Shown here piece after piece: positions 1 through 5,704 of a stretch of 35,538 nucleotides of DNA. The notes under the pieces are model-generated. The model made no database searches. It was not told the origin of the DNA and saw only the letters and a list, made by a program, of their open reading frames with translations. The DNA lies in the NCBI GenBank assembly GCA_949289855.1, contig CASEPS010000018.1, positions 1-35,538 on the forward strand. Direction: 5' to 3'. Position 1 is the stretch's first letter, and each line of letters starts with the position of its first letter. The DNA is from an uncultured Erysipelotrichaceae bacterium. Its GTDB lineage: Bacteria; Bacillota_I; Bacilli_A; Erysipelotrichales; Erysipelotrichaceae. Made by a program: the position numbers and the translations under genes.

Positions 1-696
1 AGGTTCTTTCAAAAATGGTGTAGCAGTGGTGTAGTAAGCGCCCTTCTGCTCCAAAGAACCACTGATTTTACAGGCTTTTTCAGGACTTTTCGAGATATTC
101 CGGTGGCACTCGGTCTTGTTTTTTCTGATGCAGACTGGCTGGAAGAAAAGCGGAGGACAGATATATTATTGTATGCACGGATTGACCACAGGAAGAATAT
201 TCTTGTCCGGTTTGTTATGTCCGTTGGTGTTTCGTTTCTCATAGCGATGGCAGGATTTGCCTTGAACTATCTTATTTTGTTTCTTGTCTATGGTTCAGGT
301 AACCGAATGTGGTATGCACAGGATTTACCATACAATATGATCGGGTATCCGGATATCATTACAAACAACCTATGGCTGTCATTTCCTTTTGTGGCTGTTG
401 CTGTAGAAGCAGTGGTTGTATCCATCATGCTTGGTTTGTTGTCGGGTTTGTGTTATGCCATTTCTTTCTATATTCCCCGCCGGTTTCTTGTGGTAATTTA
501 TCTTATGCCGTTTCTTATCCTGCTGTTATCTGATATTGTCATGACATCGTTGAATATGAATGCCTATTCCCTGATGATGTTATTACAGCCATACTTTATG
601 AAGAATTTTGTGCCGTGGCTAGTGGGTATGCTCTGCCTTCCTTTGATCAGTATGGTCCTTCTTGTTCCACAGCTTTTGAAAAGGGACAAACTATGA
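1..696 (+). CDS. ABC-transporter-type integral membrane protein, 5' end outside the window
   Basis: The frame is open from base 1, so the gene begins upstream; 231 codons are visible before the TGA at 694-696. The visible N-terminal part is soluble and contains the run TDILLYARIDHRKNILVR, followed by about five to six hydrophobic segments (for example VMSVGVSFLIAMAGFALNY and IYLMPFLILLLSDIVM). A basic Arg-rich stretch just before the first membrane helix is common in ABC-2-like permeases of Firmicutes peptide-export and immunity systems. The stop overlaps the ATG of the next membrane gene (ATGA), and an ABC ATPase follows two genes later, so I infer a permease subunit of that transporter. No enzyme motif is visible. 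The ABC role rests on context; the substrate cannot be told. Confidence 0.7.
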   Translation, partial: RFFQKWCSSGVVSALLLQRTTDFTGFFRTFRDIPVALGLVFSDADWLEEKRRTDILLYARIDHRKNILVRFVMSVGVSFLIAMAGFALNYLILFLVYGSGNRMWYAQDLPYNMIGYPDIITNNLWLSFPFVAVAVEAVVVSIMLGLLSGLCYAISFYIPRRFLVVIYLMPFLILLLSDIVMTSLNMNAYSLMMLLQPYFMKNFVPWLVGMLCLPLISMVLLVPQLLKRDKL

Positions 697-1379
697 AATA
701 TGCAAAGCGATACCGTTTTGTCATTGTATTATTTCTGCTTGCATTTCTTTGTGGTGGTGTAATTGTACGTGGTACAAGTGATCCATTTCTTACAACATAT
801 GCAGGGATGTTATCACATGCCATTCTCCGTTATGCCTTCATGATGCTTATATTGTTTGCGGACTATCTATTCTATACAGCCATGCATGTGACAGGTTATA
901 TCATGCGTAAGAAGAGTTTTCTGCAATGTGAAATATCTTTGTTTTGCAAAGAAAGCATTCTGGTTGCCATTCTTTGTATTGTTATGCAGGTACCTGCTCT
1001 TATGTGGAAAGGGGAATTGTATGTACAAAATCTGGATATGATGTTTGCATTGCTGGTTACGGTTTATGTCCATGCCCTGTTTATCATTGCCATTGTCAAA
1101 GTGGTGAATGCATTTGTGGAAAAGAGATCCACTGCCTGTATTGTGACATTTGTTCTTTATGGAGCTATTGATATCTTCTCCATGCTTATGGTTTCTATGA
1201 GCGTTATTCCGGATATGTTTCAATTATCAGTGCTCTTTGTTTTACCGATTGTGGTGCACAACTGGTGGCTGCCTGTTGCTATGCAGGTTCTTCTCACCAT
1301 GTTTTTGAGTATCTCTGCCCTGCAATATAGATGTGAACATATGGGATATATGCCAGGGGATGAATATGATGAAACGTAA
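693..1379 (+). CDS. Polytopic membrane protein, probable ABC transporter subunit
   Basis: A 228-residue, strongly hydrophobic protein with about six predicted membrane helices (for example YRFVIVLFLLAFLCGGVIV near the N-terminus and VAMQVLLTMFLSISAL near the C-terminus) and short polar loops. An in-frame start at 615 exists but lies deep inside the preceding gene; the ATG at 693 overlaps that gene's stop (ATGA) and begins with MKYAKRYR, a typical positive-inside N-terminus. I recognise no conserved catalytic residue or named family. Its place between two other membrane proteins and just before an ABC ATPase suggests one of several permease subunits of a peptide or antibiotic exporter. The function is inferred only from context. 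Confidence 0.65.
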   Translation: MKYAKRYRFVIVLFLLAFLCGGVIVRGTSDPFLTTYAGMLSHAILRYAFMMLILFADYLFYTAMHVTGYIMRKKSFLQCEISLFCKESILVAILCIVMQVPALMWKGELYVQNLDMMFALLVTVYVHALFIIAIVKVVNAFVEKRSTACIVTFVLYGAIDIFSMLMVSMSVIPDMFQLSVLFVLPIVVHNWWLPVAMQVLLTMFLSISALQYRCEHMGYMPGDEYDET

Positions 1380-2010
1380 TGTTGTTATGATATGCAGGTG
1401 GATAGTGGAGCTTGCTCTGGTAGTATATCTCAAAGGTATATATCTTGACCGGAATGTGAAGACTGATTTTTCTTCCATACAGGACATCCTCTTTGTAGAA
1501 GAAGCACAAGTCTTGGCAATGATCTTCTGGCTGTTGCCATTTCTCATCTCACTCATAGAAATTGCTTTTACCTTCTATCATCAGCTTGTACACTTTGATT
1601 TCCGGTATAAGGGAAGAACGCAATACATCAATCGGCTGACTTTGGAATATACAGGCAAGGCAATTCTTTATGCAGTCTTGTTCTCTTGTGGACAGCTGAT
1701 ATATTTCCATGCGTCTGATTTAAAGTCCTGTCTTGTTGTGACAGTCAATCTGTGTCTTGTCTTTTACAATCTGAATGTGATGGCAGTTGTACTTTCTCTT
1801 GTATTTACGAAATATATCTATGCAATGCTGGTGGTCGTGGCAGTTCTTTTCTCTATAACTTTTTTTCCACCATTGCTGCAATGTCTTCCAATAGCATGTT
1901 CCTTCTATACAGAAGGAATCGATATTGGGGCAGGATTGCTTGTCATTTGCATGATGGTATTGATACGAAAAGTTTATCTGCATATGGATCTGAGGGGTGA
2001 TTTTACATGA
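1366..2010 (+). CDS. Polytopic membrane protein, probable ABC transporter permease subunit
   Basis: 214 residues with about six hydrophobic segments. The start is uncertain between GTG 1333, ATG 1360, ATG 1366 and ATG 1369; I prefer 1366 because AGGGG at 1355-1359 lies six bases upstream. It overlaps the preceding membrane gene by 14 bases. A basic cytoplasmic stretch (DFRYKGRTQYINRLTLEYTGK) precedes the helix AILYAVLFSCGQLIYF, resembling the layout seen in the first gene of the operon. The stop overlaps the ATG of the ABC ATPase (2007), which strongly implies translational coupling and a shared complex. No named family is recognised. Confidence 0.65.
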   Translation: MMKRNVVMICRWIVELALVVYLKGIYLDRNVKTDFSSIQDILFVEEAQVLAMIFWLLPFLISLIEIAFTFYHQLVHFDFRYKGRTQYINRLTLEYTGKAILYAVLFSCGQLIYFHASDLKSCLVVTVNLCLVFYNLNVMAVVLSLVFTKYIYAMLVVVAVLFSITFFPPLLQCLPIACSFYTEGIDIGAGLLVICMMVLIRKVYLHMDLRGDFT

Positions 2011-2645
2011 TACTTGAAGTGAAAAACTATACAAAACAGATTAAGGGAAAGACAATTCTGGACAATGTGAATCTGAAGCTGGAAAGTGGTCATGTATATG
2101 GCTTCTTTGGGCGCAATGGCAGTGGGAAGACAATGTTGTTCAGAGCGATTTCCACTTTGATTTATCCAACCTCTGGTGATGTACTTATCGATGGAAAGTC
2201 ATTGATACACGACGATTTTGATCTTAGAAACATTGGTCTGTTGATTGAAGAACCAGGTTTTTACCCATCACTCACCGGTATGGAAAACCTTTCGCTTCTC
2301 TATGAGATCAATCATAAGAAAGATCCTGGGTATATCATTGAAGTTTTGAAAAAGGTTGGTCTTGAAGAAGAGAAAGACAAACAGTATCGCGAATATTCTC
2401 TTGGCATGAAACAAAGGCTTCGCATTGGGCAGGCTTTTATGGAAGGACAGACATTCATTCTTCTCGATGAACCGGGAAATGGTCTTGATGAAAGTGGAAT
2501 TGAAATTGTCCGAAAACTGATCATTGATCTGAAGAATGAAGGAAGACTGATTCTGCTGGCTTCACACAACAAGGAAGATCTTTCCTTGTTATGTGATGTC
2601 ATCTACAAAGTGGACAATGGGAAAGTGAAAGAAGGCAGCCTATGA
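2007..2645 (+). CDS. ABC transporter ATP-binding protein, BcrA/LanF-like with an E-loop
   Basis: The 212-residue nucleotide-binding subunit that powers the neighbouring membrane proteins. Walker A GRNGSGKT is at residues 35-42, the signature YSLGMKQRL at 130-138, Walker B FILLDEP at 150-156 and the switch histidine at 187 (ASH). The Q-loop position carries glutamate in the context IEEPGFYP (about 80-87). In the family this substitution is characteristic of the lantibiotic-immunity and bacitracin-type ATPases (LanF, BcrA). The protein is short, as in that group, and lacks extra domains. Its ATG overlaps the stop of the preceding permease and its own stop overlaps the next gene (ATGA at 2642). 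I infer an exporter or immunity transporter for a membrane-active peptide; the actual substrate is unknown. Confidence 0.88.
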   Translation: MILEVKNYTKQIKGKTILDNVNLKLESGHVYGFFGRNGSGKTMLFRAISTLIYPTSGDVLIDGKSLIHDDFDLRNIGLLIEEPGFYPSLTGMENLSLLYEINHKKDPGYIIEVLKKVGLEEEKDKQYREYSLGMKQRLRIGQAFMEGQTFILLDEPGNGLDESGIEIVRKLIIDLKNEGRLILLASHNKEDLSLLCDVIYKVDNGKVKEGSL

Positions 2646-3322
2646 AACTGATCAGAAAAATCATTCGTGAACAGCGGAAATTGTTCAAAGCTGGCATTGT
2701 CATTGTTCTTTTGATTTCTGTTGGGCTTGTCATCTATGGCAAGTGGAGTCTTCATGCCTCTGAAATGGATTCACAGTTGTACAGGGAATACTTTGGCATG
2801 CCTTATGAAGAATATTCACTGTTTTATGATACAGATGGAATATTTGACCATTCCATAGAAAGCACAAGAGAAGACATGGAAGAACAGAGTGCGTACATTC
2901 TTGTTGTGACAGCACTTGAAGGATCAAAACAATATGGGAATGCCTATATTTCACAGTGTAGTGTGGATACGGTAATCAAAGGTGAAGGAATAGAAGAAGG
3001 TATGGTAATTCATGTTTATGATCTTTCGATATATGGCATGGATTTTGATGGTTCCTTACCATTAGAGACAGGTACACAATATCTTGTCTTTCTGAATGAT
3101 GCGCCTCGTCCTGCTGTAAAGAATGCCTATATGTATTCCAGTACATGGTATGGACATCTGAGAATAGATGGACCATCCTGCTGTGTGAAAGATGACCCGG
3201 AGGAAATACTGTATATACGTGATCTATTATCCTATGATCATGTTGTCAGTGATGAAGAAGAAAAAGAACTGTTTCTGCAAACTGCAGAGAGTATTCTTTC
3301 GCATTATCAGATAGTGCCATAA
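2642..3322 (+). CDS. Membrane-anchored extracytoplasmic protein of unknown function
   Basis: 226 residues. A basic N-terminus (MKLIRKIIREQRKLFK) precedes a single hydrophobic helix at about residues 17-33, followed by a polar domain that should face outward. No lipobox and no clear signal-peptidase site is seen, so it is probably a bitopic anchor. The middle region (TVIKGEGIEEGMVIHVYD, then LETGTQYLVFLN) has the 'conductance of a small beta-domain' look found in many Firmicutes surface proteins whose family I cannot name. It overlaps the ABC ATPase gene by four bases and ends the coupled series. An accessory or sensor component of the transporter is plausible but unproven. Confidence 0.6.
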   Translation: MKLIRKIIREQRKLFKAGIVIVLLISVGLVIYGKWSLHASEMDSQLYREYFGMPYEEYSLFYDTDGIFDHSIESTREDMEEQSAYILVVTALEGSKQYGNAYISQCSVDTVIKGEGIEEGMVIHVYDLSIYGMDFDGSLPLETGTQYLVFLNDAPRPAVKNAYMYSSTWYGHLRIDGPSCCVKDDPEEILYIRDLLSYDHVVSDEEEKELFLQTAESILSHYQIVP

Positions 3323-3357
3323 ATAATCTGTCTTCATTACAGGGAGGTATCGAAACG

Positions 3358-3564
3358 ATGAAATGTCCATACTGCAATCAGGAAACGAGACCTGGATATA
3401 TCAATACAGGAAGAAACCGCATGCTTTTCAGCACAAAAGACAGATGGCATACGGTTGTAAATCCTGATGATATTGTCATACGAAAGCAATGGCACAAAAC
3501 AACACCGTCATTTTACTGTCAAAATTGCAACATAATTATTACGAAGCTGAACAAAGACGAATGA
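3358..3564 (+). CDS. Small zinc-ribbon protein (DUF6487-like)
   Basis: 68 residues with two CxxC knuckles, C3/C6 (CPYC) and C54/C57 (CQNC), separated by about 47 residues, consistent with one zinc ribbon. The N-terminal pattern CPYCxxE...GYI matches my memory of the family PF20097 (DUF6487), whose function is unknown. The SD sequence GGGAGG lies upstream of the ATG. It follows the transporter operon by 36 bases in the same direction and is closed by a hairpin shared with proC. A nucleic-acid or protein-binding role is only a general property of zinc ribbons. Confidence 0.7.
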   Translation: MKCPYCNQETRPGYINTGRNRMLFSTKDRWHTVVNPDDIVIRKQWHKTTPSFYCQNCNIIITKLNKDE

Positions 3565-3619
3565 AGTGATGTTAACTGATTTCAGAATAGTTGAGTTTGC
3601 GAAGATATCTGGTATTTGA

Positions 3620-3645
3620 AAAGGAGATCAGCATTGATCTCCTTT
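3620..3645. terminator. Bidirectional hairpin terminator between the zinc-ribbon gene and proC
   Basis: Perfect 11-bp inverted repeat: AAAGGAGATCA, loop GCAT, then TGATCTCCTTT. It lies between two convergent genes. The T-tract is short on both sides (TTT then GC on the plus strand; TTTTC on the minus strand), so efficiency is uncertain. Confidence 0.7.
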
Positions 3646-3647
3646 GC

Positions 3648-4460
3648 TTACTTTGAGAGTTCTTCTGCCCGTTTGATGCACTTTTCATCTGCTTCATGCA
3701 GGACCTTTTCGAGGTTTTGCTTTTTGAGTTCATTGATAGCTTCAATAGTTGTGCCACCTTTTGTCGCAACTTCATTGATGAGTTCATCCAGTGAGGTTGT
3801 GGCATTTTCTTTCATGAGATATCCAGAACCAATGATCGTTTCTACTAAGAGTGCTCTTGCACTGTCTTCATCAATACCGCGTGCTACAGCATCATTGACG
3901 ATGCATTGTGCAAAGTAATAAACATAGGCAGGAACAGAACCATGGATGGCAATGGTCGCATTGATCTTGTCTTCCGGAATGGTTCTTGCTACACCCATGG
4001 AAGAGAACATCTGGAAAATGAAGTCATATTCATCAGCTGCACAGTTTTCACTGCGGCAGAGGGCTGTAGCACCATGACCGATCTGTAATGGTGTATTTGG
4101 CATTGCTCTGACAATGGCAATATCTTCACCAAGAATTTCGCGCATATGGGCAATGGAAAGACCAGTGACGATGGATAATACACATTCCGGATGGCTGTAC
4201 TTGATGGCATTTAATGCTGTCTCTGCCTGATCTGGTTTGACGGCCAATACGACAATATGTGCCTTTTCGGCAATTTCCTTTTCGCTTTCAGCCAGGGCAA
4301 ACCGCTCACCTTTGGCTGTTTTCATTGTTTCCTGATGATGGTCATAGACAATGACCTGCCATCTTTCGAGGTATTCGTTCTGTACACAACCTCTTGCAAT
4401 GGCCATACCCATGTGTCCGCATCCAATGAAGCCGAGCATGTACTGTTTTTTCGTTCTCAT
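3648..4460 (-). CDS. proC: Pyrroline-5-carboxylate reductase
   Basis: Catalyses the last step of proline synthesis, NAD(P)H-dependent reduction of 1-pyrroline-5-carboxylate to proline. 270 residues, the usual family length. The Rossmann dinucleotide-binding motif GFIGCGHMG sits at about residues 10-18, AVKPDQ and RAMPNTP follow in the expected order, and the C-terminal dimerisation helices contain the conserved GSGPAY-like segment here read as HGSVPAYVYYFAQ. The start codon overlaps the proA stop (ATGA), making it the last gene of proB-proA-proC. In the GSGPAY segment, the usual Gly is Val (GSVPAY), a mild deviation. Confidence 0.96.
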   Translation of the reverse strand: MRTKKQYMLGFIGCGHMGMAIARGCVQNEYLERWQVIVYDHHQETMKTAKGERFALAESEKEIAEKAHIVVLAVKPDQAETALNAIKYSHPECVLSIVTGLSIAHMREILGEDIAIVRAMPNTPLQIGHGATALCRSENCAADEYDFIFQMFSSMGVARTIPEDKINATIAIHGSVPAYVYYFAQCIVNDAVARGIDEDSARALLVETIIGSGYLMKENATTSLDELINEVATKGGTTIEAINELKKQNLEKVLHEADEKCIKRAEELSK

Positions 4461-5704
4461 TCTCTGATTTCTCCTTTTCCTTCTAGATGGTATGTATAGG
4501 TTGTTAATGCCGTTAAGCCCATCGGACCACGGGCATGTAGTTTCTGGGTACTGATACCGATTTCTCCACCAAGTCCAAATACATTACCATCGGTAAAGCG
4601 GGTTGATGCATTGTGGTATACACATGCGCTGTCTACACCGTTCATGAACATTGCCACTTCGTTTGCCTCTTCACTGATGATGGCATCACTATGATGGGTG
4701 CCATGTGTTTCAATGTGGGCAATGGCTTCTGCAGTGCTTTCAACGACATGTATATTCATGATGAGATCACCATATTCCGTATCATAGCTGTCTTCCTTAA
4801 CAGGTAAGATATCATCTGAAAGAGAAATACAGATCTCATCCCCGTACATCATAACACCTTGTTCATGCATACTTGAAGCAATAAATGGCACAAACCTGTC
4901 CGCAATGACTTTTTCAACCAACAATGTTTCCATGGCATTGCATACGGAAGGTCTCTGGCACTTGGCATTGATGATAATTCGCTCTGCCATGGCAAAGTCT
5001 GCCGTTTTCTCTACATACACATGGCAGATGCCAGCACCTGTTTCAATAACCGGGACGGTCGCATTTTCGACGACTGACTGAATGAGCCTTCTTGAACCTC
5101 TTGGTATGAGAAGATCAAGATATTCCCTGCATTCCATAAAGCGCTGTGTCTCTTCGTGGCTGATCTTTGGCAACAAAGTGACCAGGTCTTTGTTGAGGTT
5201 ATAGTTTGTAAGTATTGTTCTGATCAGGGTTACAATCGCAAGGGAAGAATTGTAGGCTTCCTTGCCACCTTTCAGTACACAGGCATTGCCACTTTTCAGA
5301 CACAATGCTGCACAATCTGCCGTCACATTTGGGCGTGCCTCATAGATGATGCCGATGGTACCGATGGGTACAGATATCTTTTTGAGATGTACACCAGATG
5401 ATAATGTTCTTTCTTCCAGTACTTTATGTAAAGGATCATCCATAGCAGCAATTTCCCTGACGCCTTCAGCCATCGCTTCAATACGCTTTTCTGTTAGTAA
5501 CAATCTGTCAAGCAGGGAAGAAGACATGCCTTGCTGTTGTGCATTGTCATAGTCTTCTTTGTTAGCGGATAAGATTTCTTCTTTGTGCTGCAATAAGGCA
5601 TCCGCAAATTCCCGCAGGATGGTGGAACGAAGGACATCTTCACTAGTACGCAATGTACGGGAAGCCATATGGGCAGCTTTTACATAGTTGGTGATATCCA
5701 TCAT
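4457..5704 (-). CDS. proA: Gamma-glutamyl phosphate reductase
   Basis: Second step of proline synthesis: NADPH-dependent reduction of gamma-glutamyl phosphate to glutamate-5-semialdehyde. 415 residues, matching the family. Features include the start MMDITNYVKAA, the segment GTIGIIYEARPNVT, the conserved ALCLKSGNACVLKGG and the catalytic-cysteine context QRPSVCNAMETLLV. The C-terminal region has the GLGGEIGISTQKLHARGPMG block typical of ProA. It overlaps both proB (four bases at 5701-5704) and proC, so the three enzymes are probably made from one transcript. Confidence 0.97.
   Translation of the reverse strand: MMDITNYVKAAHMASRTLRTSEDVLRSTILREFADALLQHKEEILSANKEDYDNAQQQGMSSSLLDRLLLTEKRIEAMAEGVREIAAMDDPLHKVLEERTLSSGVHLKKISVPIGTIGIIYEARPNVTADCAALCLKSGNACVLKGGKEAYNSSLAIVTLIRTILTNYNLNKDLVTLLPKISHEETQRFMECREYLDLLIPRGSRRLIQSVVENATVPVIETGAGICHVYVEKTADFAMAERIIINAKCQRPSVCNAMETLLVEKVIADRFVPFIASSMHEQGVMMYGDEICISLSDDILPVKEDSYDTEYGDLIMNIHVVESTAEAIAHIETHGTHHSDAIISEEANEVAMFMNGVDSACVYHNASTRFTDGNVFGLGGEIGISTQKLHARGPMGLTALTTYTYHLEGKGEIRE

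Follow-up and report, generated by a model that had tools for sequence, protein, structure and literature searches.

Organization of the transporter operon

The stretch of DNA analyzed here (the window, 35,538 nucleotides) is the complete contig CASEPS010000018.1 (our G000:C18) of a draft genome (GCA_949289855.1; 2.33 Mb in 116 contigs, 95.7% complete) from an uncultured Erysipelotrichaceae bacterium, and it opens with an operon for an ABC transporter that appears akin to the LanFEG lantibiotic immunity pumps. Five genes follow one another on the plus strand: P1, an ABC-2-type permease truncated at its 5' end (1..696); a second and a third permease, P2 (693..1379) and P3 (1369..2010), both with an ATG start; a LanF-like ABC ATPase (2007..2645); and Ext (2642..3322), which combines a transmembrane (TM) anchor with an extracytoplasmic domain. 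Hydropathy segments number four in the P1 fragment, seven in P2, five in P3 and one in Ext, while complete homologues mostly have six per permease, and each permease is taken to have about six TM segments when complete. The gene calls and hydropathy bear out the order given in a preliminary description of this DNA, namely three multi-TM proteins, one ATPase and a membrane-anchored outside protein, and the tight joining of the genes that it described is evident from successive overlaps of 4, 11, 4 and 4 bases, three of the junctions being ATGA.

The operon is cut upstream, and the 5' end of P1 is missing, because the window is a whole contig that starts inside this gene. The first ca. 33 codons of the P1 frame (window 1-100) align poorly with the 10 relatives with which P1 was aligned, and are perhaps assembly-edge sequence or the product of a rearrangement. 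Bases 1-150 occur only once in the genome, and a search of the same genome for the missing P1 start matched only the LanG gene.

Only the ATPase was recognized in scans against Pfam (ABC_tran, 6.6e-28) and NCBIfam, with P1, P2, P3 and Ext lacking any credible match. Its top NCBIfam model is TIGR03740 (lantibiotic protection; 7e-50, 169.8 bits), and Glu81 (codon 2247..2249, plus strand) takes the place of the Q-loop glutamine, as the preliminary description had noticed. In the corresponding column of a 74-row ATPase alignment, Glu is kept without exception by the 11 distinct close ATPases (12 rows, since L001 duplicates the window) as well as by the fragment L074, and E, D or N is found in all 31 LanF-like rows scoring 143-225 bits. 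The lower-scoring rows have mostly Q (16 rows), with G in 3, D in 2, P, S, L and E in one each, and a gap in 5. We take such an ‘E-loop' to be a mark of LanF ATPases, although an open-access literature search with both terms gave no paper. The best family model and the E-loop together support, at the level of sequence, the kinship with LanF that had been proposed. Searches with PADLOC returned only generic ATPase-type matches for this protein, and viral contigs searched with the ATPase alignment gave none.

The kinship extends to the first permease. P1 matches the LanG-position permease of a two-permease LanFEG-like system in the same genome (E=4e-5), and profile alignment with hhalign gives this pair a probability of 70.5% (reversed control 0.2%), compared with 51.5% and 96.7% (reversed control 0.1-0.2%) when two divergent P1 sets are aligned with the same permease. 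With a probability of 98% between P1 and these divergent sets, P1 is homologous across the copies tested; P2 aligns with its counterpart in the divergent operons at 84%. P2 and P3 may be related to each other (27%), and neither exceeds 21% against fused permeases of 420-520 residues, so that no history of duplication or fission is claimed. The LanFEG-like system itself (G000:C2, L018 6500-14034) is accompanied, by inspection, by an OmpR-type regulator and kinase and by two further secreted or anchored proteins.

Ext is anchored through residues 14-32, and its predicted domain covers residues ca. 70-224. An AlphaFold2 model from 11 sequences (predicted local distance difference test score, pLDDT, 78.9) was compared with known structures using VIA-align, which placed the agrin NtA domain on top (3i70; Z 8.7, root-mean-square deviation 3.1, 108 aligned residues) and gave TIMP-1 (3ma2) a Z of 8.2, scores that are only middling by the tool's own note. 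Complement accounts for many of the 50 listed entries, of which 49 belong to agrin, TIMP, complement C3/C4/C5, PCOLCE or meteorin, the remaining one being a secreted hookworm protein; Foldseek gave an E value of 6e-4. The matched part of the complement entries is presumably their NTR domain. Since five kinds of NTR-domain protein match and almost nothing else does, the domain is predicted to have an NTR/TIMP-like OB fold. At the sequence level, no TIMP or NTR family was among the 12 Pfam families matched at E<=1 by 20 Ext members, Ext reached no Pfam or NCBIfam cut-off, its profile gave nothing against PDB sequences at E<=1, and PADLOC returned a single weak Csm3 match (8.7e-4). As a single-protein query, Ext had no match in the genome contig collection, nor did searches of plasmids and phages with Ext yield any.

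Profile searches show that Ext is tied to the transporter. With weak matches included, the Ext profile has matches in 13 of the 315 genomes searched in the order and in 15 of the 395 searched in the class. In the order, a LanF-like ATPase lies beside Ext in 12 of 13 matches at E<=1e-4 (four of the 13 being members of the profile), although in G124 it is truncated by an apparent integrase tail; the exception is G300. In the class, the eight strong matches (window included) have P1 in every case and the ATPase in seven, the eighth being G263. Order matches above E=1e-4 (G131, G181, G118) and seven weak class matches (L112-L118) are left out of these counts. In G300 (L041 1199-2323), the Ext homologue stands beside another secreted protein of 128 residues, and no ABC transporter was seen on the 5.9 kb contig.

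Orthologous operons and the secreted protein Pep

The operon is patchy in its distribution, as judged from 149 related genomes in which P3 was matched in two and Ext in four, with the window's own genome counted in. A search of the genome contig collection with the ATPase alignment returned 37 loci, of which 12 (L045-L054, L061 and L074; 59-70% identity) have the same operon, L054 and L074 holding only remnants of it; these come from metagenome-assembled genomes (MAGs) of uncultured Bacilli, Tenericutes or Bacillota and from Thomasclavelia. L048 is identical to L015, and L054 to L016, the L015 and L016 loci coming from genomes of the window's order. Ten operons are uncut upstream of the ATPase (L045, L046, L047, L049, L050, L051, L052, L061, L015 and, from G075, L017). 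Seven of them have P1-P2-P3, P2 is absent from the other three (L050, L052, L017), and Ext is present in all ten, cut by the locus end in L046. The L046 ATPase has an open frame of only 136 residues although the tblastn match spans residues 1-207, and this copy may be damaged. In the relatives P1 is the first permease of the operon, on which basis a continuation upstream as a larger conventional transporter is rejected. The unrelated upstream transporter with two permeases that had been named as a refuting result was thus not found, yet three of the ten operons do have two permeases.

Mean identities among the orthologues are 64.7% for the ATPase but only 39.6% for P1, 30.4% for P2, 26.9% for P3, 34.0% for Ext and 33.9% for Pep, the secreted protein described below, a pattern that would be expected if specificity lay in the divergent components. 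Regulators, which the preliminary description had suggested looking for upstream, occur beside copies in relatives: LytTR regulators adjoin L015, L036, L040 and L042, and a GHKL kinase adjoins L036.

Several relatives have features of their own. Five orthologous operons carry, 3' of Ext, a gene for a protein of 421-547 residues with four TM segments and a large outside part (L047 9916, L050 11311, L052 6852, L053 1286, L061 10960), and no named family was found for the four that were scanned. In L015 (= L048, Thomasclavelia sp. MAG.139; 1..4528) the contig ends share 27 bases and a 230-residue LytTR response regulator reads through the joint, so that the whole unit (regulator-P1-P2-P3-ABC-Ext, ca. 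4.5 kb) is either circular or tandemly repeated; among its open reading frames no replication gene was seen. L016 (= L054; 4600-5610) is cut within the ATPase by an apparent tyrosine integrase tail, the C-terminal part of the ATPase and Ext being all that remains, while in L043 (11561-12874) P1 is separated from P2 by a transposase gene that, by eye, resembles those of insertion sequences. Four Ext-bearing systems occur in the single genome G075 (L036, L037, L017). Two of these form a tandem pair that follows one Pep, one 11-TM protein stands where P2 and P3 would be, and an AgrB-like gene (by eye), the GHKL kinase and a LytTR regulator lie upstream. A related layout is found in L057, L066, L067 and L069, where a P1 homologue is paired with one permease of 489-521 residues (9-12 hydrophobic segments), the Q-loop position of the ATPase is Asp or Asn, and no adjoining Ext was seen.

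Pep is the first gene of the operon in L045, L049, L051 and L061, where it lies 52-59 bases upstream of P1, is preceded by a ribosome-site-like stretch (by eye) and encodes 135-147 residues with a Sec/signal-type N-terminus, positive charge being followed by a hydrophobic segment. Among the ten uncut orthologous operons, four thus have an intact Pep, one has remnants and five have none. No Pfam or NCBIfam cut-off was reached, and the matches below cut-off (TmcA, 3.2e-4, and Ape1_N, 0.0024, being the best) were taken as chance. Plasmids searched with Pep gave no match, and the Pep profile found only antibody-like and other chance-level matches among PDB sequences (E>=0.038). An AlphaFold2 model from four sequences (pLDDT 68) is an all-beta sandwich whose fold matches (tripeptidyl peptidase 2, CBM86, PirA, the furin P domain and others) are near-tied at VIA Z scores of 7-9, and it is therefore read as a common beta-sandwich and nothing more specific.

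The linkage of Pep to the transporter is partial but recurrent. A protein that aligns with Pep at 15-20% identity also stands first in divergent operons of G075 (two places) and of G323; these sequences were built into the profile, so their profile matches prove nothing. That profile, made from seven Peps, was searched in the 315 genomes of the order and the 395 of the class. The order search gave ten matches at E<=0.01, of which three are profile members. Among the others, the match in G129:C251 (3.5e-7) precedes P1, two more permeases, the ATPase and Ext; that in G315 (1e-8) is a decayed Pep abutting P1; and a weaker one in G261:C125 (0.004) precedes P1, one more permease, the ATPase and Ext. 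The class search gave four matches, including one in G526, where Pep precedes three permeases and the ATPase without Ext. The remaining order matches are four, one at a contig end and two that look spurious among them, and the remaining class matches are three, one of which looks lipoprotein-like. Matches in G243 (pilin-like), G000:C52 and G340 (both lipoprotein-like) were dropped from the counts as spurious by eye; those in G094, G529 and G368 are likewise outside them, and that in G266 lies at a contig end. Profiles identified Pep, P1 and the ATPase in L094 and L096, and Pep and the ATPase in L125, with the other parts assigned by position, size and number of TM segments. Independently, the Ext profile led to L121, an operon that starts with a Pep (G347) found by local scan and absent from the genome-wide Pep search matches, so that the linkage has been found from both sides. 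In L040, another secreted protein, of 130 residues, occupies the place of Pep and is not matched by the Pep profile.

A comparison of L047 and L061 illustrates the loss of Pep from an operon whose transporter is kept. The ATPases of the two are 93.4% and the Ext proteins 80.3% identical, and Pep is intact in L061, while all that a DNA alignment shows of it at the same place in L047 is its beginning, its end and one piece from the interior (tblastn pieces at E=0.004 and 0.07). The reading frames of P1, P2, P3, the ATPase and Ext are open in either operon, with ratios of nonsynonymous to synonymous substitution (dN/dS) of 0.16, 0.13, 0.29, 0.06 and 0.16, respectively. Of 13 genomes searched whole for Pep at E<=0.01, only the four in which this locus has an intact Pep gave matches (at the locus, plus a weak second match, E=0.002, in one genome); those of L046, L047, L050 and L052 gave none. 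Loss of Pep with the transporter kept fits a self-protection function that outlasts a toxin.

In the window, the gene 35 bases downstream of Ext (3358..3564, plus strand) encodes a small DUF6487 zinc-ribbon protein (PF20097, 1.7e-11), which is probably a neighbor outside the system, although it was never searched for in relatives. The remaining DNA (3648-35538) looks like housekeeping sequence, with proline biosynthesis-type genes by inspection and, in ten open reading frames scanned with Pfam, carboxylesterase, FtsA-type, FtsZ, CNNM, RNA methyltransferase, Mur ligase, PhoH, Era-type GTPase, class II tRNA synthetase and sigma-70 families.

Functional interpretation of the transporter

Taken together, these observations lead us to favor, with a probability of about 0.53, a reading of the operon as a LanFEG-like immunity or resistance transporter, the substrate of which in the relatives would be Pep, with Ext as a capture protein on the outer face. 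P1, P2 and P3 would together form the membrane part (ca. 18 TM helices instead of 12), powered by two ABC ATPases, Ext would catch a harmful substrate at the outer face of the membrane or hand it to the pump, and the pump would expel it from the membrane to the medium. The cognate substrate in the relatives, Pep, would be a Sec-secreted, beta-rich protein of ca. 110 mature residues, bacteriocin-like in its behavior, and lineages that lose it would retain the pump. The window copy, for which no Pep was found in its own genome, may serve resistance only, or a Pep gene may lie beyond the contig end.

A number of observations weigh against this reading. Pep is missing or broken in six of the ten uncut orthologous operons, and of the seven strong class matches of Ext besides the window only one (L121) has Pep by profile. 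The genome of the window itself has none, the order search giving there one weak, unrelated-looking match (E=0.009) and the class search no match. Pep has no sequence or specific fold match to any bacteriocin and no known activity; neither P2 nor P3 matched the one LanE tried; and the Ext of the window has, by eye, no lipoprotein-type cysteine, unlike LanI. The constraint on P1 to Ext between L047 and L061 may in part be older than the loss of Pep. Furthermore, the ATPase score falls below the curated TIGR03740 cut-off of 309.75 bits, yet that cut-off must be very strict, since the two-permease LanFEG-like system of the same genome (149.6 bits) and six further ATPases that were scanned also fail it.

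The scarcity of intact Pep, its absence from the genome of the window and the LytTR or kinase genes beside several copies would also suit a general envelope-stress or antimicrobial-peptide resistance pump of the Cpr kind, in which Pep would be a co-regulated secreted sensor, decoy or surface protein of some lineages. We consider this unlikely, however, as operons that do have Pep begin with it, Pep there has a signal and a ribosome-site-like stretch of its own, and the pairing of Pep with the transporter recurs across separate genera. This recurrence also argues against the view that Pep is a chance or unrelated neighbor and that the transporter is an ordinary ABC-2 system exporting a lipid, drug or polysaccharide. 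The ATPase does match both the drrA model and ABCA lipid transporters of solved structure, but its best family model is for lantibiotic protection, it has an E-loop and P1 is related to LanG, so that such an exporter seems improbable. The preliminary description had left the choice between expanded immunity and peptide export. A transporter that exports Pep (or a processed part of it) or assembles it at the surface, with Ext as its chaperone, would account for the tight operon and for an Ext that faces outside; given that Pep has a Sec-type N-terminus of its own and that the transporter is open where Pep is gone or absent, we regard a mere Pep exporter as quite improbable, and immunity is the function that we infer.

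The harmful substrate is unlikely to be a home-made lantibiotic. LanC (PF05147) was found in none of the ten carrier genomes (control matched in 1 of 14), which argues against an in-house LanC-dependent lantibiotic and leaves the idea that the same strains make a lantibiotic unsupported. Rather more doubtful than immunity itself is the further possibility of a new bacteriocin-immunity class in gut Bacilli, composed of a Sec-secreted beta-sandwich toxin (Pep), a dedicated 18-TM three-permease LanFEG-like pump and a membrane-anchored TIMP-like receptor for immunity, from which resistant non-producers, perhaps the organism of the window among them, would arise by loss of Pep alone. If true, poorly cultured gut bacteria would have a hitherto undescribed family of secreted antibacterial proteins, together with the transporter and the NTR/TIMP-like receptor that give immunity to it, and LanFEG systems could be seen to expand to three permeases. 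Nature would then also have provided an experiment, in that closely related bacteria share this pump but differ in whether they have Pep.

Comparison with known systems

The open-access literature yielded no description of a Pep-Ext pair or of three six-TM permeases, which does not prove that none exists. The pump is regarded as a variant of the known LanFEG/Cpr type. Lactococcin 972-type systems pair an unmodified protein, secreted by Sec, with an ABC system dedicated to it; Pep would share both Sec secretion and the ABC system with them, and is presumably longer than the lactococcin 972-type proteins. PF09683 (lactococcin 972) had no match in the Pep scans or in the ten carrier genomes, although no control matched either. 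The Tim/Mtz pair of Listeria likewise combines a bacterial TIMP-like protein, the Tim lipoprotein, with a secreted partner; that partner, Mtz, is a metzincin protease, and no ABC transporter is mentioned in the abstract (PMC8235301).

As in LanFEG and CprABC transporters (NisFEG, CprABC; PMC5786555), the hydrophobic permeases are encoded in one operon with their only ATPase; further points in common are the kinship of P1 to the LanG-position permease of the LanFEG-like system in its own genome and the two-component-type genes near several copies. An outer-face protein stands beside the pump in both cases, Ext here and LanI there, with LanI playing a capture role for lantibiotics (PMC5786555). 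In contrast, LanFEG and Cpr systems have two six-TM permeases (12 TM) rather than three of ca. six TM (18 TM). Further differences are that Ext is held by a TM anchor and is predicted to fold like an NTR domain, that LanC, dispensable for Cpr-type resistance systems, was found in none of the ten carrier genomes, and that the pump is linked to a Sec-secreted protein in some relatives. The nearest precedent found for three membrane subunits is NsrFE1E2G-XRK of Streptococcus mutans, linked to nisin A resistance, which also has one ATPase with three membrane subunits (PMC5786555). By its published description, its membrane subunits contribute 2+4+6 = 12 TM segments (PMC5786555), whereas those of the present system have ca. 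six each.

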